Below are positions 53,566-63,419 of a stretch of 64,000 nucleotides of DNA, in pieces; position 1 is the stretch's first letter, and each line of letters begins with the position of its first letter. The translations under genes were made by a program, and so were the position numbers. The DNA comes from Sphingomonas sp. S2-65 (lineage in GTDB: Bacteria > Pseudomonadota > Alphaproteobacteria > Sphingomonadales > Sphingomonadaceae): the NCBI RefSeq assembly GCF_021513175.1, contig NZ_CP090953.1, positions 3,158,501-3,222,500 on the forward strand, read 5' to 3'. Under the pieces are notes generated by a model, which made no database searches, was not told the DNA's origin, and saw only the letters and a list, made by a program, of their open reading frames with translations.

Positions 53566-55560
53566 TCAAGTCTCTGCTTCTAATCTGCTCAGATCATATC
53601 GGTCAGCACGCTCATGCTTGGCCATCAGTGCCTCGACCTCATGTCGAAGCCTTCCCAGACGCCCCTTGCTCCCGATGAGCGGCAGAGCACGAAGCGGCGA
53701 GGGCATCTTGCGCCCGCGTCCTCCCCACCGGGCTAGGATCTCGCCCCCGGAGATGTGAAGCCTCGCCAGCCGCAGAATGTCGGCGCGGCCGTAGGTCCCG
53801 CTCTCCGAAGCGGGCAACTCGCCGGCGATCAGGGCCTCCTGGAAGATCCGCGGCGTGAGGTTCAGCAGCTCCTCCGCGTCTCGCCGGTTGATGCGCGAGG
53901 TGAAGTCGATCCGGCATCGGCGCGGGCGCGCGAAGTCCATGCCGGTGAGGACGTCGAGCTGGTGTCTCGGCACGAGGACCCGGCTGGTCAGAGGCGCATC
54001 TCGCTGGCCGTCCAGCCGGAAGGCGAGGCTTCCCTCGATCATCGCGACGAGGATCGCGCCCCAGGGCTTCTCGCGTCCGCCGATCGCCGCGGCCGCCCGA
54101 CGCAGGGGAAGCTCTTCCCCTGACAGCTGCTGGGCGGCGCTGTTCTCCAAGGCTTCCACCAGCGCGTCGAAGCTGCTTCGGCTTACCTGACGTCGAAGAA
54201 GCGCCAGGCGAACCGCTGGATCGCCTAGTAGGCTGAGCTGATTCAAGGCGCACAGCTGCTCCACGCCGTGATGGCTGATGCCGAGGCGCTGGCTGGCGGA
54301 GCCGAGGTCCATTCTGTCGGCGAGAAGCGCGGCCGTGGCGCGCAGCTTGTCGGTTCGGAAGATCTGGTGGCGGTTGATCGTCCCGCCGACGGCGATCGGA
54401 CACAGGATGCTGGCCTTCCACAGTCGCTCGAACGTCCGCTGGCTAACGCCCAGCACACGCTGGGTCTCGGCGGAGTTGCCGGCCTGTCCGATTGCGTTCT
54501 TCAAGGTCGCCTTGTCGGAGGACGCGAGGCCGGGGAGGGCGTCCAGCATGATGTCCGCATGACAGGGCCACGAGTTCCGCCCGCGGACCAGCAGGCGCAG
54601 CTGCTTCGCCAGGCGCAGACCTGCGGCCGCGTCGGCGGACGCCGCGTCCGAGCATGCCTTCCGCAGGCCTTCCGGCCAGCTGCTCAGCATCTTCGAACCC
54701 GCCTTCAGGATTTCGATGCGGGTGGTCGCCGGCAGCTTCCTTGCGCCGTCGCGCTTTCCCACGCCCACCCCGGCGAAGATGCTGCCGACGCGCCAGCCCA
54801 GTTCGAACACCTCGCCGCGGTCGAGGCTGGTCAGGCGCTTCGGCAGGCGGCGGACTGCCGCGAGATGCAGCTTGGGATCGGGGTGGAGGATGGTGCTCAT
54901 CAGGGCAGTCGATCGCAGGTCGTTCTCGGCGATGCGTTCGCGGTCGCAGGTGCGCAGGTCGAGCATGCAGTGGTGGCAGTTGCGCAGGACCGAGCTGCTC
55001 CAGGTGAAGCCGGTCCGACAGCGCGGGCACCGGTCGATCAGCACCTCACCCGTTCTCGGACAATGCGTGAGCAGCCCTAGATGGCCGAGTGCGGAGTGGT
55101 GTGCATCACGCTCCAGCCATGCCGGCGCGAAGCGCCTCTGCTTGAGGCCCAGATCGTAGGCGGCAATAGTGGTTCCGTGGAAGCGGAAGCCGGGCAGGTC
55201 GGATGTGATCTCCACCCTGGAATAGAGGCGGGCCTCCACGTCGCACGCGGTGAGGCGCGCCGCCCATGCGAGCTGCGCGAAGTCTACGTCCTCGCGGCAG
55301 GCCAGGTTCATGTAGGCATGGCCCACCGGAGCCACTGAGGAGAGGAGCGGGGTCACGAGCGGCATGTGGCTGGCGGCGCAGGACCGCGCGATCAGACCGA
55401 TCAGGCTCTCATCCGCTACCGGGGTGACCCCTCTCAGGATCCTGGGCCCGGTGCGTTCCTGGATCGGCGAGGGCGCGATCGCGGATGCACTGGCCTGCGC
55501 CAGTGCATCCGGGCCGTCCGACATCCGCTCCGCAGATGCGCTGCTGCCGACGTCATCCAT
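53566..55560 (-). CDS. tniQ: TniQ/TnsD-family target-selection protein
   Basis: A 664-aa protein. The TniQ domain has its zinc-binding cluster in HCPRTGEVLIDRCPRCRTGF and VLRNCHHCMLDLRTCDRERI. Downstream are several helix-turn-helix-like segments, for example AETQRVLGVSQRTFERLWKA and ASQRLGISHHGVEQLCALNQ. It directs the TnsABC machinery to a target, as TnsD does at attTn7. The length is nearer to TnsD than to the short TniQ of CRISPR-linked elements. It starts inside the end of the ATPase gene (ATG at 55560). Confidence 0.85.
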   Translation of the reverse strand: MDDVGSSASAERMSDGPDALAQASASAIAPSPIQERTGPRILRGVTPVADESLIGLIARSCAASHMPLVTPLLSSVAPVGHAYMNLACREDVDFAQLAWAARLTACDVEARLYSRVEITSDLPGFRFHGTTIAAYDLGLKQRRFAPAWLERDAHHSALGHLGLLTHCPRTGEVLIDRCPRCRTGFTWSSSVLRNCHHCMLDLRTCDRERIAENDLRSTALMSTILHPDPKLHLAAVRRLPKRLTSLDRGEVFELGWRVGSIFAGVGVGKRDGARKLPATTRIEILKAGSKMLSSWPEGLRKACSDAASADAAAGLRLAKQLRLLVRGRNSWPCHADIMLDALPGLASSDKATLKNAIGQAGNSAETQRVLGVSQRTFERLWKASILCPIAVGGTINRHQIFRTDKLRATAALLADRMDLGSASQRLGISHHGVEQLCALNQLSLLGDPAVRLALLRRQVSRSSFDALVEALENSAAQQLSGEELPLRRAAAAIGGREKPWGAILVAMIEGSLAFRLDGQRDAPLTSRVLVPRHQLDVLTGMDFARPRRCRIDFTSRINRRDAEELLNLTPRIFQEALIAGELPASESGTYGRADILRLARLHISGGEILARWGGRGRKMPSPLRALPLIGSKGRLGRLRHEVEALMAKHERADRYDLSRLEAET

Positions 55561-56542
55561 TCGCCTTGACCACTCCGAAGCGGAAGGGGTCGCTCGCCGC
55601 GAGCTTCTGCTCGACCGCCCAGGTGCTTGTCGCGTGAGAGAGGTCGCAGACTTCGATCCGCGCGGCGCTCCGAAGGAATGCATGGCGTGCAGCCTCCCGC
55701 AGAAGGGCCACCACCCGGCCGAGGTAGCCGCTCGAGATGGACATCAGGCATGCCATGACCCGGGGGTCCGTCAGGTTGGACGTTTCGGCGAAGAGCTTCT
55801 TGCCGGTGAGCTGCTGGTCGTATTTTCCGAGGAACTTCGAGAAGGTGGCCTGGCTTGCCGTGTCGTCGAGGCGAAGCGGCTTGATGTCGCAGGGCGGGCG
55901 CAGGCGGTGGCTGAGCTGGTTGTTGGAGGGCAGGATCTTACCTGCCTCCTCGTTGCCGAAGAGTCCCAGGCCGACCCTGCCGTCGTTGATGAACCGCTTG
56001 ATGACGTCGGTGGCGGCCGAGTTGCCGCTCGAGCGGTAGCCTGCGTGCTGGACCTCGTCGATGATGAGCAGGACGGTGCCGTGCTCCTCGAATGCGTCGT
56101 AGGCGCTCCTGCGGAGAGCCACTTCGTCCTTCTTCGAGGTGTATCCGTCATCATAGGCATCGAGGATGGAGGTCCAGAAGCGCCGCGAGGTGCATGCCTG
56201 CTCGAGCTCCACCCGCACCACGGGGCGGGCCTCCGCCGGAAACGTCTTCCGCCTGGCGATCACGCGGGCGTATTCGTCTGCCGCGGCGCTCTTGCCTGCG
56301 AAGCTGGCGGCAGAGTTGCGCACCGCGTAGCAGGATCCGGGCCTTCCCAGCGAGACGATCTCGTCGAGAGCCCTCAGGACCGGGGCGTGGTTAGGATTGT
56401 TGACGTAGATCGATTCCAGGACCTCGTTCCAGCCCTTCAGGGCCGCAAGCCTCTCCCGGGATGAAGAGGGGACCGGAAATCCCGAGGCGGGCTGCAGCTC
56501 AGCCTCGCTGAAGAGCTGGTTGTGCTTGGGGCTGATCATCAC
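55553..56542 (-). CDS. tnsC: TnsC/TniB-like AAA+ ATPase with unusual P-loop
   Basis: A 329-aa ATPase. Walker B is HGTVLLIIDEVQHAGYR (residues 155-170), typical of TniB/TnsC. The Walker A position reads RNSAASFAGKSAAADEYARV (75-94): the GKS is present, but the first Gly of GxxxxGKS is Ala78. It should link the target-site protein to the transposase. Start GTG at 56542 or ATG at 56539, both overlapping the transposase stop. Confidence 0.83.
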   Translation of the reverse strand: MMISPKHNQLFSEAELQPASGFPVPSSSRERLAALKGWNEVLESIYVNNPNHAPVLRALDEIVSLGRPGSCYAVRNSAASFAGKSAAADEYARVIARRKTFPAEARPVVRVELEQACTSRRFWTSILDAYDDGYTSKKDEVALRRSAYDAFEEHGTVLLIIDEVQHAGYRSSGNSAATDVIKRFINDGRVGLGLFGNEEAGKILPSNNQLSHRLRPPCDIKPLRLDDTASQATFSKFLGKYDQQLTGKKLFAETSNLTDPRVMACLMSISSGYLGRVVALLREAARHAFLRSAARIEVCDLSHATSTWAVEQKLAASDPFRFGVVKANG

Positions 56543-58788
56543 TTGAACTCCTCGAAGTCGTCGTCATTCGACGTGGGTTCCACGATCGGCGGGGGCATGT
56601 GGAAGGTGAGCCCGGCGGCGTCGAAACTCGCCTCCGGGTCCTCGCCGCCTTCAGCATCGGCATCCAGTTCGGCGGATGTGGAGAAGCCCGGACGGCTCTG
56701 GGCGCGCAGAGCGTCTTCCCGCTCATTCGCGGGGGCCTCGTGCTCGATGATGGGAGCCATGCCGTCGTGGCGCGGTTCCGCCTCGGCGTATTCGACGGGG
56801 AATGCGGCCGAGGCGCCGGGCGAACCTCCCAGCATCCGTGCCATCGCACGCCGCTCCCGGGCGTCGGCGTCGGGAAACGCCTCCTGGATCGCCTTGTTCA
56901 GCTCGTATCTGGCCGCGAGGCGCTCGGCCTGCGAACTGAACTTCAGGGCTTCGCGCTTGGCGAAGTCGCGGATCTGGTTGTGTTGCCAGAGGCTGAGGCC
57001 GTCTGCGTATTCGGGCTGCGTGTTCTCGAGGTCGAGCCAGTCGTCGCCGACGAAGACCTGGACGCGCAGAAGGTCCTCGGGGTTGTATTTGATCTTCGTG
57101 GTGATCGCGGCGGTGGCGTCGAGGCGCTTGCGATGCGGCTCCTTGGCTGCCAGCTTGTCGGTGACGACCGGAAGGTTCGGCCCCTTCCAGGTGAGGCCGA
57201 ACATGCGCGCGCCTCCGCCCACCGTGATGCGCTTGTTGTGCACCGTGGTGCCCGTGACGATGTCGATCTTCCGGCGGTCGAGGATCATCTGGCGATGACC
57301 TGCGGTCATTCCGCGTTCCCACTTCTGCAGCGGAACGGCACTGATGCCGGAATGGAAGTTGGTGTGATACGCGAACAGGAAGTCCGCGATCAGCTCCTTC
57401 AGCTCGGTGACCGTGACCACCGCCTCGCTCCCCGGATCGATGCCGAGCTTGCGCAGGACGCTTGGATCCAGCGTGGCGCCGGGCAGCTTGTCGATGAGGA
57501 AGGTGTTGAGGGTGCGGAAGAAGCGTTCGATTATCCCCTTGTGGCGGGGCGAGCCGACCGGGGCGAGTTCGTGGGTGATGCCGAGGTCGGCCAGCAGCTC
57601 GCCGAAGGCCGGCGCCACGTAGTTCGCCCCGTTGTCGGTCACGATCTTGTCGGGCTTGCCGGACAGATATGCCAGGGCCGGAAACCGGGCCAGCCGGTCG
57701 GGCCGGACGTCGAACTTGGCGAAGTTCGCGGTGCGCAGGCACTGGGCCGAGATGGCACGGAACCGCTCCGGCAGGAGCGCCTTTCGGACCGTGTCCGCCG
57801 CCTTCTGCGAATTCGGCGGAAGGAAGCTGACGGTGAGCCCGATTACGCACCGCGAATGCACGTCCAGGATGACCGTGAGGTAGGGCCGTCCGGCGATGAG
57901 GCCCCGGTCGACGTCCAGGCAGGTGACGAGATCGACGATCGTGTCGTCCATGAGCGCGATCTGGAGGATGCGTGTCGCGGTGATGCCGCGGCCCGACCCG
58001 TCGAACTTCCGCTTGGCGGCCTTCTCGCCGAACTTGGCCGCGTAGGTCTCGCGGCAGAGCATCTCGTTGACGCGCCGCCGGATCGTCTCCTTGCCCGGCA
58101 CGGGCAGTGGATCCACGCCTTCGGCCACGCGGCGGATGTTGAGCTGATGCACGCGCGTGACTACGGCGGCTTCGACGTCGATGATCTTGTATCCGCGGTT
58201 CGCCCAGTAGCGGGGCCGCTCCTCCTGGATGATCTGCTCTATTTGGGACGCGAGCCGGTTCTGCCGCGCGACGCGGCCGCTGAGCGAGAACATCTGCTCG
58301 AGGGTTATGTCGGTGTCGATGATGCGCCCGAGCCAGGAACGGACCTTCGGGATCGTGGGACAGGTGCCGAACCTTTCCTCCAGGTCGCCGGTCCAGATCT
58401 TCTTGATCTCGGCGCCCAGCCGCGCGTCGCTGGCGTCGACGCCCCGCTCCACGAGGCCCAGGATCAGCTTGAGGCGCGCCTCGGCCATCGGGTCCTTCTC
58501 GAGGATGTATTCGCGGTCGAAGACCCGGGCCTGCGCCCGTGCCGGTGCCACCGGCCCGTTCCTGTCCGCGATCTTGCGCAGCTCGCCTTCCGCGAGGTTT
58601 CGCTCGAACCACGGAAAGTCGGTGAGCTGGAGTTCGCCGGTCTCGGGATTTTCAACCCGGTGCGTCGCCCCGGAGGGCAGCCGGATGACATGGAGGAGGC
58701 CGTCGCCGAGATCGCGCTCGATCAGCAGCTTCAGGCCGGAGCTGTCGACGAACGTGGACCCGAGGACGCCGGAGATGTTGAGGTTCAT
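56539..58788 (-). CDS. tnsB: TnsB/TniA-like DDE transposase
   Basis: A 749-aa protein with N-terminal DNA-binding regions. The Mu-type integrase core has Asp281/282 in ALMDDTIVDL, GRPYLTVILDVHSRCVIGL, Asp385 in KIVTDNGANYVAP and Glu421 in RHKGIIERFFRTLNTF; the last two are exactly 35 residues apart. A beta-barrel and a long acidic C-terminal tail that may contact the ATPase follow. AGGAG 6 nt before the ATG at 58788 fixes the start. It catalyses strand transfer. Confidence 0.92.
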   Translation of the reverse strand: MNLNISGVLGSTFVDSSGLKLLIERDLGDGLLHVIRLPSGATHRVENPETGELQLTDFPWFERNLAEGELRKIADRNGPVAPARAQARVFDREYILEKDPMAEARLKLILGLVERGVDASDARLGAEIKKIWTGDLEERFGTCPTIPKVRSWLGRIIDTDITLEQMFSLSGRVARQNRLASQIEQIIQEERPRYWANRGYKIIDVEAAVVTRVHQLNIRRVAEGVDPLPVPGKETIRRRVNEMLCRETYAAKFGEKAAKRKFDGSGRGITATRILQIALMDDTIVDLVTCLDVDRGLIAGRPYLTVILDVHSRCVIGLTVSFLPPNSQKAADTVRKALLPERFRAISAQCLRTANFAKFDVRPDRLARFPALAYLSGKPDKIVTDNGANYVAPAFGELLADLGITHELAPVGSPRHKGIIERFFRTLNTFLIDKLPGATLDPSVLRKLGIDPGSEAVVTVTELKELIADFLFAYHTNFHSGISAVPLQKWERGMTAGHRQMILDRRKIDIVTGTTVHNKRITVGGGARMFGLTWKGPNLPVVTDKLAAKEPHRKRLDATAAITTKIKYNPEDLLRVQVFVGDDWLDLENTQPEYADGLSLWQHNQIRDFAKREALKFSSQAERLAARYELNKAIQEAFPDADARERRAMARMLGGSPGASAAFPVEYAEAEPRHDGMAPIIEHEAPANEREDALRAQSRPGFSTSAELDADAEGGEDPEASFDAAGLTFHMPPPIVEPTSNDDDFEEFK

Positions 58789-58908
58789 GCAATGCTCCTG
58801 AGATTGCGCGCGGCCGGGCCGCGCGCCTGAGGGTGGATCGATTTCGGAGAGGGCCACTTCGGGCCTCGAAAGCATCGGCGGTCCTGGTCTAGGCCCGTCG
58901 TGGAGCAC

Positions 58909-59745
58909 TCAGCGGCGCAGGCTGGGCATGGCCAGCCGGAGTGGCGGTACGGCCCGGCACTCGCTGCGCTCGGTCAGGCGCGCTTCGAGATCGATCTCGA
59001 CCACGCGCTGCACCATCAGGGCGTAGGCCATCGACCGGCCGTTGATGGGGTGGAGCATGGATGCGAGGCTGCCGAGGGAGATCGGGCCTCTGGAAACGGC
59101 GGCCGCCGCCCGCGCGATGAGATGCTTGGGCACATGCACGAACCGGCTCGCCTGGATCTCGTCGATGTTCTCCCGCCGCTGCTGGCCACCCGCGTTCGCG
59201 AGGACGATCCGCTCGTATCTGTATCCGATCGCGTCGGCGGCGAGCTGGCCGAGGAACGACTGCTTGCGGGCTTCGGGCCTGCGAAAGTCACTCCAGTGCC
59301 GCTTTGCGTCGATCAGCACGCGGCTGCCGTCGGCCATCAGGTTGGAGAAGTCGGGCAGGTGGGACCACCATGCTCCTCCCACCAAGGCCTCGACGCGCAG
59401 GGGCTGGGCGATCGCCTTGACGATGTCGACGCGCACTTCCTCCTCGGGCAGGCGCAGGATTTCGGTGGCGCCCTCCGCGTAGCGGTTCCTACTCATCTTT
59501 TTGGAGGGATAGCCGATAGTCCGGATGCTCTTGCGCCCGGTGATCTGCGTGCGGAGTTGATCGCCGTCCGGCGCGCGGACGATGACGACCTTCGTCACCG
59601 GCGGGAACGCTCCGAACCGGGGGTCGGTGCGGTACATGGCTGCACGTTCGGCGCCCAGAACGAATTCGGAGCGGCGGTTGCCGGGATGATCCGGCTGCGG
59701 ATCATTCGCATTGAAGGAGGTGTTGTGGTTGGCGAAGCTGTTCAT
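58909..59745 (-). CDS. tnsA: TnsA-like endonuclease
   Basis: A 278-aa protein with a restriction-endonuclease-like core: SHLPDFSNLMADGSRVLIDA followed by KRHW gives Asp132, Asp146 and Lys148 (D...DxK), with an upstream Glu candidate in EGATEIL. A wing-like C-terminal part (LGSLASMLHPINGRSMAYAL) matches the TnsA C-terminal domain. TnsA cuts the 5' ends so that the element moves by cut-and-paste. GAGG lies before the start. Confidence 0.82.
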   Translation of the reverse strand: MNSFANHNTSFNANDPQPDHPGNRRSEFVLGAERAAMYRTDPRFGAFPPVTKVVIVRAPDGDQLRTQITGRKSIRTIGYPSKKMSRNRYAEGATEILRLPEEEVRVDIVKAIAQPLRVEALVGGAWWSHLPDFSNLMADGSRVLIDAKRHWSDFRRPEARKQSFLGQLAADAIGYRYERIVLANAGGQQRRENIDEIQASRFVHVPKHLIARAAAAVSRGPISLGSLASMLHPINGRSMAYALMVQRVVEIDLEARLTERSECRAVPPLRLAMPSLRR

Positions 59746-59860: not shown

Positions 59861-60307
59861 TCACGCCTTCTGCGGTTTGCGCCTGCCTGCACGCTGCGGT
59901 CGCGACGCGTAGGTCGTCGCGGCGAGTTCCGAGCCGCGGAAGAGGACGCCCTGCCGGAAGAGATCCTCGATCGTCGGCTTGGCGGTCGGCTGGCGGGGTC
60001 GGAAGCAGCGCGACATCAGCGCCTCGATGTCGGCATCGAAGGCGAGAACGGGCTTGCCTTCCACGTATCTGCGCGTTGCGACGACGAGCACTTCGCCCGC
60101 ATCGATGGCGGCGCTGAGCAGCGCCTCGTCCATGTTCCGGACGATGGGACGACGCTTGGGTTCGGGCGCGTAGAGGGGGATCTCAACCAGGCGGACCTTC
60201 GGCAGCTCGTTGTTGCCTTCGTCGACGCGGCGGACCTCGAGGAAGGTGTCGGCGAGCAGCACGGTCCCGTGCTGGAGGAGGCCGTGCTTGGGGTTGCGGT
60301 GGCTCAT
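59861..60307 (-). CDS. Unknown protein in the Tn7-like operon
   Basis: A 148-aa basic protein. Its start has CAGGAAC upstream and its stop lies 115 bp before tnsA. Visible stretches are GTVLLADTFLEVRRVDEGNN, IPLYAPEPKRRPIVRNMDEA and LVVATRRYVEGKPVLAFDAD, with a basic tail (RPQRAGRRKPQKA). No family recognised. Its position upstream of tnsA in the same direction suggests a regulator or accessory transposition protein; that is inference. Confidence 0.6.
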   Translation of the reverse strand: MSHRNPKHGLLQHGTVLLADTFLEVRRVDEGNNELPKVRLVEIPLYAPEPKRRPIVRNMDEALLSAAIDAGEVLVVATRRYVEGKPVLAFDADIEALMSRCFRPRQPTAKPTIEDLFRQGVLFRGSELAATTYASRPQRAGRRKPQKA

Positions 60308-60446: not shown

Positions 60447-60950
60447 CTAGCTCTGCGGGGCGGCCCCGCCCCGGCGGGCACGATCGCCGGCACGCCACTT
60501 GCGAATGGTATGGACGTTGTCGTGAGGACCCCAGGTCGCGAGGAGATCCCCGGTCCAGTGCCGGTGCAGCCAGATTGCGATTGCCTTCGCGCCGTTCTTG
60601 ACGCCGGCCGCGTCGAGAAGCTCAACCTGGGTGAGCAGCTTGAGGGTCGGATCCGGAGCCTGGCAGGACCGCATCGCGGGCAGCACCTCGGCTTCGCCGA
60701 CAAGGGCCAGTTCTGACCACTGGCTGCACGTCATCAGCGACGGGCAGCCGTCACGATCCGCGACCAGGTAGAGGCCATACGGCGGCGTCGAATGTGCCAG
60801 GATCAGATTGAAGCCTGCCCGGCCGACCAGTCGAAGGCGGCTGGACCGGATCCTGATCTCGCTGCCGCAAGGCGGCGGGGCCACCTCGCATGATCTTCCT
60901 GAGGGAGGAGGGCCAGGTTCCTCCTCGAGTGCGGTATGTTTGAAGGACAT
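60447..60950 (-). CDS. Unknown protein at the presumed right end of the element
   Basis: A 167-aa protein. AGGAG lies 6 nt before the ATG at 60950. It includes AGFNLILAHSTPPYGLYLVA, LKLLTQVELLDAAGVKNGAK and AIAIWLHRHWTGDLLATWGP, ending in a basic, Gly/Ala-rich tail. No family recognised. As the first gene inside the right end it is transcribed from a promoter next to, or within, the transposon end, where the transposase may autoregulate expression. Confidence 0.55.
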   Translation of the reverse strand: MSFKHTALEEEPGPPPSGRSCEVAPPPCGSEIRIRSSRLRLVGRAGFNLILAHSTPPYGLYLVADRDGCPSLMTCSQWSELALVGEAEVLPAMRSCQAPDPTLKLLTQVELLDAAGVKNGAKAIAIWLHRHWTGDLLATWGPHDNVHTIRKWRAGDRARRGGAAPQS

Positions 60951-61314
60951 GTAAGCTCCTCTATGCAGACACTAGGTTGGATAGGAAATTCCGCTATCGT
61001 GTCCCTAAGGTGCTTACGGGCGCTTCCGTTGTCAAGCGCCATTTCGACGCAAAATTGACTTGGCTAATCAGGTATCACGTCACTGATTCTAAATCGTCTA
61101 ATGATCTCTGCAACTTGAAGGAGGGAAAGAAAAATCAGATGAAGGCCCTATGCGCCACGTTCGCTGGCTCGATCTGGTTTGCGGCTGGTAGCTTCTGGGC
61201 GTCCGGTGGAAGTGGGCGGGCTCGCGCCGACGGGCTCTCGAACGCTCCTGCTGATTTGGGGCCGCGCCTCTTGTGTAGCTTGCTGTGCCGACGCGGCGGC
61301 TATACCTGATCCGC
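60951..61314. other. 364-bp AT-richer stretch expected to hold the transposon right end
   Basis: The first 200 bp are markedly AT-richer than the surroundings (for example TTCGACGCAAAATTGACT and GATTCTAAATCGTCTAATGA). Short related words (GTCAAGC, TGACTTGG, ACGTCACTGA) suggest possible multiple transposase sites, but no clear repeat or TGT/ACA terminus was established. It also carries promoters for the flanking divergent genes. Confidence 0.4.
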
Positions 61315-62529
61315 ATGGCGGAAGATGACGCAGCTTTGAAGAAGATGTTCTCCCGCAGGGCGGGCAGGAATTCGGACGAAGCTCGGGAGACGGCTCTGTT
61401 CGCCCGATTGCCAGCCTCCAAGCAGCGACTTGTGGTGGATCGCCTGGCTAAGTTGGATGCTTATCTGGAGGCGCGGGCTAGCGGGAATGCCGATACTGCA
61501 GCGGCCGCCGCCGCCTTGGGCGTCACGGTCCGAAGTCTCTATCGCTTGATCAAGCGTCTGGAGGAACTCGGGCCCGTAGCCGCGTTGGCGCCCACTCCGG
61601 GCGCCGGCAGGAAGAAGCGTGCCGACGCGGACCAGGCCCTCTCCGAAGAGGCTGATGAGCTCATCGCCGCCACGATCGTCCAGCGCCCGCATCTCTCGGT
61701 TTCTGAACTGGTGAAGCGTGTCAGGGAGGTTGATCCGGACGCCTCAGCCTCGACGGTGCGCAGACGGGCGTTGCACCATCGGAGGTACTACGATCCGGTG
61801 CCGGATGCGCAGTTTGGCCGGGAATGGCTGGTGGATCAGGCTGCGGTTCGCATCCCGATATTGGAGCAAGGCTACTCTTGGCTCGTAGCGACCTTCGTGG
61901 TGGATGCCGACAGCGGGATCATCGTCGGGCGCTGGCCCGCAAGCGGCACGGAAGATGCTGCACTATGGGCGCTTGCGCACGCGGCTGGTCGCATGGGCGC
62001 GCTGCTTCGCACGCGATTGAAGGTAGCCAGCCGCGTGCGCAAGGTTACCTGGGTGCTTCCCGAGCGTTCGCATGACGATGGGGATCGAGTGGTCGACCGC
62101 GGCGCCGGGTTGAAGCCGCCCGTGGAGGTCATAACGGTCGGCGGCGCCAAGTATCGCCGCGGCGGGGCGCTTTCCAAGGTCCTGGGAGGCTACGTAGGCG
62201 ATCTGGAGATCATGATCCGCGCCACTCCGGAACCATTCGTGGAGCGGCGCGACGAAGATCCGGAACCCTTGAGCATGGATCGGGCACTTGAGGTGCTCGA
62301 CTACAACATCCAGCTTTCGCATGACTACATGTCTCGCTGGGCGATATCGCCAGGCTCTAGGAAGGTGCCGTCTCCGAGCCGGATAGCCTCGATGAAGCGC
62401 ATCATGGAGCAGCTGATCGATGTGTTCGAGCCGGCCATGGCCCTCAACGCCGTCGTTGCCGCGCGGGAGAGCGCCGGCAGGATCGGCGAGGATTTCCCTG
62501 CAGAGCCCACCGAAGCGCCACAACCCTAG
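61315..62529 (+). CDS. Helix-turn-helix protein with degenerate integrase-like core, paralog 1
   Basis: About 404 aa. A helical N-terminus (LFARLPASKQRLVVDRLAKL) precedes a helix-turn-helix (ALGVTVRSLYRLIKRLEELG), then a second one (HLSVSELVKRVREVDPDASA). A segment like an RNase-H fold follows: SWLVATFVVDADSGIIVGRW, then VRKVTWVLPERSHDDGDRVV. The order matches transposases of the Mu/IS481 kind, but no convincing D-D-E triad with a terminal Glu can be placed. The C-terminal 120 residues are helical. Homologous in layout and motifs to the convergent gene at 62526-63419. Confidence 0.65.
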   Translation: MAEDDAALKKMFSRRAGRNSDEARETALFARLPASKQRLVVDRLAKLDAYLEARASGNADTAAAAAALGVTVRSLYRLIKRLEELGPVAALAPTPGAGRKKRADADQALSEEADELIAATIVQRPHLSVSELVKRVREVDPDASASTVRRRALHHRRYYDPVPDAQFGREWLVDQAAVRIPILEQGYSWLVATFVVDADSGIIVGRWPASGTEDAALWALAHAAGRMGALLRTRLKVASRVRKVTWVLPERSHDDGDRVVDRGAGLKPPVEVITVGGAKYRRGGALSKVLGGYVGDLEIMIRATPEPFVERRDEDPEPLSMDRALEVLDYNIQLSHDYMSRWAISPGSRKVPSPSRIASMKRIMEQLIDVFEPAMALNAVVAARESAGRIGEDFPAEPTEAPQP

Positions 62530-63419
62530 CGGTACTGCTGCTCCTGTATGAATTGGCTGATCGCCCGCTGCGCCACCGCCAGCTCTACCGCTTGCGACGG
62601 CGAGGCTGCCCTGGACTGCCTGGGGGCGAACGGCACCTTGGCTATCCGCAGTCCCAGGATCGACATGAGTGCCGAACCCGCTCTCACCCCGTGGCTTGCG
62701 CCTGCGTCCAGACGCACTCCGGCTTTGCTCAGCACGTCGCTGTAAGGAAGCAAGGCTTGAGCGCGGTCGCCGGTGACGATCAGCGCGCGTTGGGCGAAAG
62801 CCTCGGCCGCCGCTTCAGCAACCATTCGAGCGAGTGCTTCAGGTTTCGGAGCGCCTGCTGACAGGCTGTGGATCAGCAGCCTGCCGGTGATCGCATCCTG
62901 GACGCCGGCAAGCGTCGCGATCGCCGCTTCTCCAGCTTCATCGAGCACGTCGAGCGACAGGGGGCAGACGTCGAGGACGATGTCGAAGCGTCGACCAAGG
63001 CGGATGCGCAGGTCGACGTCGGTGCCGGTCGTCCGCGTCCGGATCGTGTTCTCCGATGGCGGTTCGAGCCCCGCAGCGCGGCAGCGCCTGACGACTTCTA
63101 GGTGCACTGTCCGCTGGGGAGCCTCGGGCCCCAGGTCCCGCATGGTTTCGAGGATCACTTTCTCGAGCTGGGAGGACAGCCAGCGCCGCTTTCCGCGGCG
63201 AGAGCGGCGTGCGCGGCCGGTGATCTTGAGGATCTCGTGAGCCTCGATGAGCCTGTAGAAGCTCCGAACCGTGAGTCCGAGCTGTTCCGCGTGTTCCGCG
63301 ACATCTTTCCCGGTCGGATCCGGCAGCGCGTCGAAGCTCTTCAACACGTCCAGGCGACGCAGGGCTTCACTCCACTTTGCTGGCGGCAGCTCGGCCAGCA
63401 TCGCGACGTCTCTGTCCAC
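62526..63419 (-). CDS. Helix-turn-helix protein with degenerate integrase-like core, paralog 2
   Basis: A 297-aa protein. The N-terminus (MLAELPPAKWSEALRRLDVL) and helix-turn-helix (EQLGLTVRSFYRLIEAHEIL) align with paralog 1. A basic linker (RARRSRRGKRRW) and a second helical motif (LEVVRRCRAAGLEPPSENTI) follow, then VLDEAGEAAIATLAGVQDAI as the core strand region and RALIVTGDRAQALLPYSDVL. GGAGGA 5 nt upstream supports the GTG at 63419. The two genes overlap tail-to-tail by 4 bp. No catalytic triad is evident. Confidence 0.65.
   Translation of the reverse strand: MDRDVAMLAELPPAKWSEALRRLDVLKSFDALPDPTGKDVAEHAEQLGLTVRSFYRLIEAHEILKITGRARRSRRGKRRWLSSQLEKVILETMRDLGPEAPQRTVHLEVVRRCRAAGLEPPSENTIRTRTTGTDVDLRIRLGRRFDIVLDVCPLSLDVLDEAGEAAIATLAGVQDAITGRLLIHSLSAGAPKPEALARMVAEAAAEAFAQRALIVTGDRAQALLPYSDVLSKAGVRLDAGASHGVRAGSALMSILGLRIAKVPFAPRQSRAASPSQAVELAVAQRAISQFIQEQQYR

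Follow-up and report, generated by a model that had tools for sequence, protein, structure and literature searches.

Introduction

Tn7-like elements are a source of programmable integration tools. The transposases TnsB, TniA and MuA are each one enzyme of about 550-830 aa, and TnsE of Tn7 is an accessory, non-catalytic protein that comes on top of TnsABCD. In phage Mu the repressor, c, is encoded divergently from the transposase genes and has a DNA-binding domain related to that of MuA. TnsF of Tn6022 is described as an inactivated tyrosine recombinase that is kept by a Tn7-like transposon, lies in an operon with a short TniQ and selects comM (PMC10293859). Insertion at tRNA sites is known for other Tn7-like elements (PMC8649781, PMC11406308).

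A pair of genes, A and B, was analysed in a window of Sphingomonas sp. S2-65, the window being the whole stretch of 64,000 nucleotides. The products share with TnsB, TniA and MuA the order of the helix-turn-helix (HTH) regions and the RNase H-like core, as well as profile and fold matches; they differ in the loss of the second D and the E, in their sizes of 404 and 297 aa, and in being two diverged paralogs. As in the case of TnsF, a dead recombinase is kept by a Tn7-like transposon, but the fold of TnsF is unrelated, and A and B are divergent from the operon, convergent with each other and located beside a long TniQ, with a tRNA site that did not follow them in the one swap available. Like TnsE they are accessory and non-catalytic; unlike TnsE they are related to transposases, and TnsE was absent among the PDB matches of A and of the B profile. 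The Mu repressor is similar in its divergent position and its transposase-like DNA-binding domain, but it is a single protein without an RNase H-like core.

The first-pass annotation, made from the sequence alone, regarded the pair as undescribed, and this was borne out as far as the literature search reached: no description of such a dead-transposase pair was found, supplements and most subscription papers being outside the scope of the search. In the annotation of a plasmid copy from S. parapaucimobilis, A, B, TnsA, TnsB and TniQ are hypothetical proteins and TnsC is an AAA family ATPase. A broad survey of Tn7 selectors sought genes in operons with tnsC or tniQ/tnsD (PMC10293859); such a rule could miss two genes encoded on the other strand.

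Organization of the locus

In the window the genes tniQ-tnsC-tnsB-tnsA form one operon on the minus strand (53566-59745), to the left of A and B. The start of gene A was set at the ATG at 61315, while the longest open reading frame begins at 61285. The features are the following.

61315..62529, plus strand: gene A, 404 aa; N-terminal HTH region, second HTH region (HTH_32), RNase H-like core with the second D and the E missing, C-terminal helices
62526..63419, minus strand: gene B, 297 aa; paralog of A with the same architecture by profile alignment and a shorter C-terminus
62526..62529: overlap of the A and B stop codons, 4 bp, CTAG
61834..61836, plus strand: codon of D174 of A, which aligns with the first catalytic D and is kept in 35/35 A proteins
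60951..61314, no strand: divergent intergenic region that separates A from the genes on the tns side
60447..60950, minus strand: small gene upstream of tnsA; product matches the TnsB of relatives (E to 9e-17)
59861..60301, minus strand: small gene, also upstream of tnsA; family matches not above chance
58909..59745, minus strand: tnsA-like endonuclease gene; NF033179, E 3e-10, below the curated cut-off
56539..58875, minus strand: tnsB-like transposase gene with the DDE kept; rve, E 6e-9; longest open reading frame begins at 58908
55553..56542, minus strand: tnsC-like AAA+ gene; two tested relatives match Pfam TniB (E 1e-18 and 9e-8)
53566..55560, minus strand: tniQ/tnsD-like gene, 664 aa; family profile matches PDB TniQ/TnsD chains, best E 9e-8

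The TnsA-like and TnsB-like proteins were assigned with NCBIfam and Pfam, and TnsC by the Pfam TniB/AAA matches of the two relatives. Pfam TniQ matched 6/16 members of the tniQ/tnsD-like family, the protein of the window not being among them. Over the 123.5 kb searched, neither the ends of the window's own element nor any tRNA was found. Several elements have small genes with TnsB-matching products, close to tnsA or on the far side of B. Besides the one at 60447-60950 in the window, these were L040 9271-9900, L042 3320-3685, L088 4554-5222, L150 8199-8651, L153 6442-6963 and L197 4455-5228.

Homology, fold and loss of catalysis

The tail-to-tail arrangement with a 4-bp overlap, as first annotated, was right in coordinates and strands, and so was the shared N-terminal block with its HTH: BLASTP of A against B aligned the stretch LPxxK...RL...LGxTVRSxYRLI with 24/62 identical residues (E 1e-6). 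The family profiles of A and B aligned over 279 columns (E 8e-27), or over 297 columns (E 6e-25) with another set of rows; by profile comparison the two proteins are homologous across nearly their whole length. Both are related to the TnsB/TniA transposases. Against TnsB profiles, the A profile aligned with E 1.3e-10 over 271 columns, the RNase H core among them, and the B profile with E 1.5e-10 over 161 columns. In the PDB the A profile matched TnsB with E 3e-4, and the TnsB match of the B profile was weak (E 0.11).

A model of A was obtained with AlphaFold2 from 14 sequences (mean pLDDT 72.8, pTM 0.54). The N-terminal regions were helical, and residues 170-275 formed an RNase H-like sheet. 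All 12 PDB matches found by Foldseek at E ≤ 0.001 were MuA, TnsB or IstA. Since the TM-scores were low (0.15-0.27) and the rmsd was 22-28 Å, the likeness is by domain and not in the overall pose. The RNase H-like segment that had been noticed in both sequences was thereby confirmed for A by model and fold search; for B it is supported by the alignment of its profile with those of A and TnsB.

To evaluate the catalytic triad, 35 A and 36 B proteins were aligned with 8 TnsB and 11 TniA-like proteins and three single relatives. The first D, counted by eye, was present in 35/35 A, 15/36 B, all 19 TnsB and TniA-like proteins and 3/3 single relatives. The second D was found in 1/35 A and 3/36 B (8/8 TnsB, 11/11 TniA-like, 0/3 singles), and the E in 0/35 A and 1/36 B (7/8 TnsB, 11/11 TniA-like, 0/3 singles). 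Some A proteins have a D two columns past the second-D position, which makes the loss of this residue dependent on the alignment; the loss of the E is independent of it. The only TnsB without the E, in L041 (4278-6473), has a very long branch and may be misaligned or unusual. Judged by these residues, A and B are catalytically dead, in agreement with the early remark that neither gene has a usable D-D-E triad; what recurs in relatives is pairs with lost triads, and not only singletons with intact ones.

Occurrence and gene order in relatives

TnsC was taken as the anchor for the survey, since it does not favour the pair. The search gave a match in 42/396 genomes of the order, at 47 places. At 31 of these E was up to 3.4e-14, and in 26 both A and B adjoined tnsA; one of the 26 (L042) was joined across a contig end. 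The other five comprised one place with B only near a contig end (L093), two with neither gene (L087, L099) and two cut by the contig end (L091, L098). Hence 26 of the 29 decidable TnsC-anchored elements of this Sphingomonadaceae clade carry A and B, with A divergent from tnsA. Nine of the 16 weaker TnsC places were examined and the pair was found in 0/9, one of them (L101) stopping 1.5 kb past tnsA.

Among the 26 TnsC-anchored pairs, 23 were convergent and three ran in one direction (L088-L090). With the pairs from the search with A and two plasmids added, 36 elements with both genes were mapped, of which 33 were convergent. An overlap of any size was present in 18/33 convergent pairs, and one of exactly 4 bp in 9/33. 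A scan of named genomes with one short pattern gave six loci, all convergent, three of them in genomes already counted; L149 is one of the other three. The named relatives belong to Sphingomonas, Sphingobium and Novosphingobium. Each mapped core had a single TniQ gene within the 10-20 kb stretch. The first-pass annotation had described a kept pair of unlike paralogs adjoining tns genes, and this held in 26/29 elements; the convergent orientation proved to be usual and not universal, given the three same-direction pairs, and one convergent pair (L149, 9833-11987) had no tns core in a stretch of 21 kb.

The A profile matched 4/385 genomes of the class; two of the matches were strong, both in the genus of the window. 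In the family it matched 44/397 genomes, about 18 with a strong A, and many of the remaining matches were longer TnsB/TniA-like proteins. Searches of viral_contigs with A1, A3 and the window's A gave no relatives, and tblastn returned no plasmid record when the A or B proteins of L147 and of the window served as queries. On these grounds a phage or plasmid origin of the pair was rejected. Two plasmids carrying diverged A/B pairs were found by way of TnsC.

Some loci showed additional copies. L090 had three B genes, L089 and L191 each had a second B-like gene, and in L152 a second, broken copy adjoined B. On a Sphingomonas plasmid (L153, 13510-18128), genes for a caspase-family protein, an S8 peptidase and a TIR-domain protein lie directly past tniQ, possibly a defence cluster. 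Three other cores carried one dead relative of A and B, in each case also divergent from the tnsB-tnsC core:

L198, 1671-2909: single dead relative
L199, 9337-10686: single dead relative; L198 and L199 are near-copies
L200, 996-2660: single dead relative

These may be an older version of the device that consists of one gene.

Position within the transposon and target sites

Inverted ends with a perfect 5-bp duplication were found in 5 of the 24 regions tested, regardless of tRNAs. The elements were G114 (36.7 kb), G954 (49.6 kb), G341 (32.2 kb), G895 (47.3 kb) and G779 (29.1 kb), G114 and G954 being near-copies. A search limited to ends beginning with TGT gave nothing convincing, and the five were accepted without that limit. 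Two further candidates were discarded by eye: G391 (score 11.0) and G068 (12.0, above the 11.5 of the accepted G779), whose end lay 25 bp from the tniQ stop as against 128-208 bp in the accepted five. In all five elements A and B sit between tnsA and the cargo. The pair, which had been called adjacent to the Tn7-like element, therefore lies inside it, as judged from these relatives with resolved ends.

In four of the five, only one to a few bases separated the cargo-side end from the 3' terminus of a tRNA gene (Cys, Cys, Met, Arg); in the fifth it lay at the 3' terminus of what reads as a uracil-DNA glycosylase gene. Ends of three more elements came from a search that started at tRNAs and are not independent evidence for tRNA targeting. 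For L046, at tRNA-Arg, the target site duplication was AATCC, the first 9 end bases were identical and the distance to the tRNA was 11 bp as against 1-2 bp. Its ends begin with TGTTGG, as do those of L194, whose TnsB is 47% identical. The ends of L050 (tRNA-Cys) and L052 (tRNA-Gln) are less sure. L046 and L050 each had 10/14 matching end bases.

Co-inheritance and exchange between cores

In a tree of 35 A and 31 B proteins, built with a quick method and rooted at the midpoint after five short B rows had been left out, A and B each formed one group apart from the TnsB/TniA-like proteins (SH-aLRT 83 and 90). Given this midpoint root, the two may have arisen either by one duplication or by two losses of catalysis. 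Pairwise identities of A and B were correlated (Mantel rho 0.60, p 0.001, n=35, the near-copy L190 left out), and so were those of TnsA, TnsB, TnsC and TniQ among themselves (rho 0.59-0.73). Against TnsA, TnsB, TnsC and TniQ, in this order, the values were 0.02, 0.02, 0.09 and -0.03 for A, none with p < 0.05, and 0.12, 0.13, 0.14 and 0.03 for B, the first three with p 0.007-0.022. Co-evolution is seen between the two members of the pair, with little or none towards TnsA, TnsB, TnsC and TniQ. This indicates that the pair is a module exchanged between unrelated cores.

Two natural swaps were found. In L044 (G114) and L046 (G347), A is 81% and B 74% identical, while TnsA, TnsB, TnsC and TniQ are only 17-23% identical (TnsB 19%, TnsC 23%, TniQ 21%). 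The reverse is seen in L089 and L090, with Tns proteins 89-98% identical and A and B at 28% and 39%, the best-scoring of the three B genes of L090 being used. L044 and L046 share 3.2 kb of DNA at 75% identity, which starts just ahead of A and extends past B; the ends and the core differ. An additional cargo stretch of 11.5 kb is common to both and 94% identical. Between these loci dN/dS was about 0.08 for A and 0.12 for B, so both genes are under purifying selection. The pair stays adjoining tnsA across cores with TnsB as low as 13-25% identical. Judging by these sequences, A and B appear to be standard, co-inherited equipment of a Tn7-like transposon clade of Sphingomonadaceae.

Repeats between tnsA and A

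A first survey of 21 tnsA-A regions including that of the window, with a cut-off reached by at most one of 30 shuffles, gave five cases of direct and five of inverted repeats. The controlled survey used margins of 60 bp and 40 shuffles per region and covered the 18 tnsA-A regions whose length was suitable, the window and the other pairs being outside this set. A direct or inverted repeat counted as significant when at most one of the 40 shuffles reached it. Such a repeat was detected in 9/18 tnsA-A regions, in comparison with 2/40 divergent intergenic regions elsewhere in these loci (Fisher p 1.7e-4). By sequence, the repeats are operator-like. L194 has a direct repeat of 15 bp and L049 an inverted repeat of 16 bp, both perfect; L195 has an inverted repeat of 12 bp, L051 a tandem repeat of 19 bp and L043 inverted sites of the TTTGCAAATG type. 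In the window itself the region 60951..61314 showed no significant repeat (best p 0.13).

In L044, L190 and L046 the 13-bp word TTGGCATNTAGAA is present in two copies 44 bp apart, and these loci contain no further exact copy; L044 and L190 (p 0.05 and 0.15) are outside the nine significant regions. The stretch with TTGGCATNTAGAA is identical at 69/74 positions between L044 and L046, as against 75% for the whole shared A-B DNA. The motif common to both may reflect plain descent, since homologous DNA is shared there. Six pairs of loci with related A/B and unrelated cores (L051/L096, L051/L193, L096/L193, L043/L097, L041/L042 and L041/L045) showed no clear common intergenic word. The best of them, L051/L096, was reached by 1/20 shuffles, and the A proteins in these six are only 44-57% identical.

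The regions upstream of A and of B had no common word above chance: 2/35 loci exceeded all 15 shuffles, which is about chance level, and a shared operator upstream of both genes was rejected. One operator controlling both promoters was thus not seen. A conserved non-coding RNA upstream of B was rejected as well; the stretch conserved between L044 and L046 reads, by eye, as a gene.

Proposed function

It is tentatively predicted, with confidence somewhat short of even, that A and B are paired dead transposases which bind DNA and regulate the divergent tns operon. Both proteins together would act on paired sites in the region between A and tnsA-B-C-tniQ, and binding there would control, and probably repress, expression of the transposase, much as the Mu repressor acts through its MuA-related DNA-binding domain. 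The module would carry its own operator and so could be moved between unrelated cores. Co-inheritance of A and B suggests a heteromeric complex; its binding to the repeats and the resulting repression are put forward as the likely mode of action. Gene A is divergent from the transposase operon, and B is opposite to A in 33/36 pairs. A regulatory role, one of the options raised at the outset, gained some evidence from the repeats in the tnsA-A regions, but not from the window's own region. The repeats could also serve another protein. The need of a regulator for two convergent genes is not explained by this proposal, and the L149 pair without a tns core and the cores without the pair (L087, L099) speak against it.

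More broadly, A and B might be an exchangeable heteromeric module of dead transposases, for control or targeting, that is plugged into unrelated Tn7-like cores; this is somewhat doubtful. It would be a new Tn7 accessory, possibly a second targeting pathway of pseudo-transposases. This targeting version, with TniQ/TnsD directing insertion to tRNA genes and the pair to other DNA such as plasmids or phages, is the main rival of the regulator and is considered rather unlikely. Analogy to TnsE and TnsF lends it weight, as does the near-universal presence of the pair in the clade beside a single TniQ per mapped core. Precedent is provided by TnsF as a dead-recombinase selector (PMC10293859), and two complementary pathways are usual in the Tn7-like elements that have been studied (PMC11406308). 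Contact with TnsC or TniQ would be indispensable for such a selector, but the co-evolution of the pair with these two proteins is slight or absent, and in L044 and L046 nearly the same pair stands beside a TnsC and a TniQ of only 23% and 21% identity. Moreover, the cargo side of one of the two plasmid-borne copies faces a tRNA gene, although without a confirming duplication, so residence on a plasmid is no sign of another pathway.

Weapons against rival transposons, in which dead relatives of TniA-type transposases cap the ends of competitors or poison their transpososomes, would agree with proteins that are dead, fast-diverging and exchanged independently of their own core. The fixed place adjoining tnsA would then be left unexplained and the rival or binding site is only hypothetical, which makes this role improbable. 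The same low probability is assigned to an unrelated cargo system, for defence or cargo regulation, hitched beside the core by chance: the orphan pair of L149 and the exchange along with neighbouring cargo in L044/L046 fit it, but the pair keeps its place by tnsA even where TnsB is down to 13-25% identical.

Insertion-site choice could be judged from the L044/L046 swap. L044 is at tRNA-Cys and L046 at tRNA-Arg despite the identity of 81% (A) and 74% (B), and neither the site nor TniQ is common to them. L044, L190 and L050 have tRNA-Cys and a TniQ of 54-96% identity in common (L050 provisionally), and the A of L050 is 39% identical to that of L044 and to that of L046. In this small sample the insertion site goes with TniQ. 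A and B thus probably do not choose the chromosomal site, contrary to the early suggestion of a target-marking factor, although this is one swap, the ends of L046 and L050 come from the search that started at tRNAs, L046 lies unusually far from its tRNA, and the 19-26% difference between the pairs could alter specificity. Selection of the tRNA attachment site by the pair is therefore very improbable, even if dead DNA-binding recombinases can select sites, as TnsF does (PMC10293859). The immunity factor also suggested at first is unlikely, since target immunity should co-evolve with TnsB and the pair hardly does (rho 0.02 for A, 0.13 for B).

The natural swaps L044/L046 and L089/L090 make the independence of the module directly testable. 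A module working beside cores that are about 20% identical would show that the control or targeting of transposition is pluggable independently of the core.
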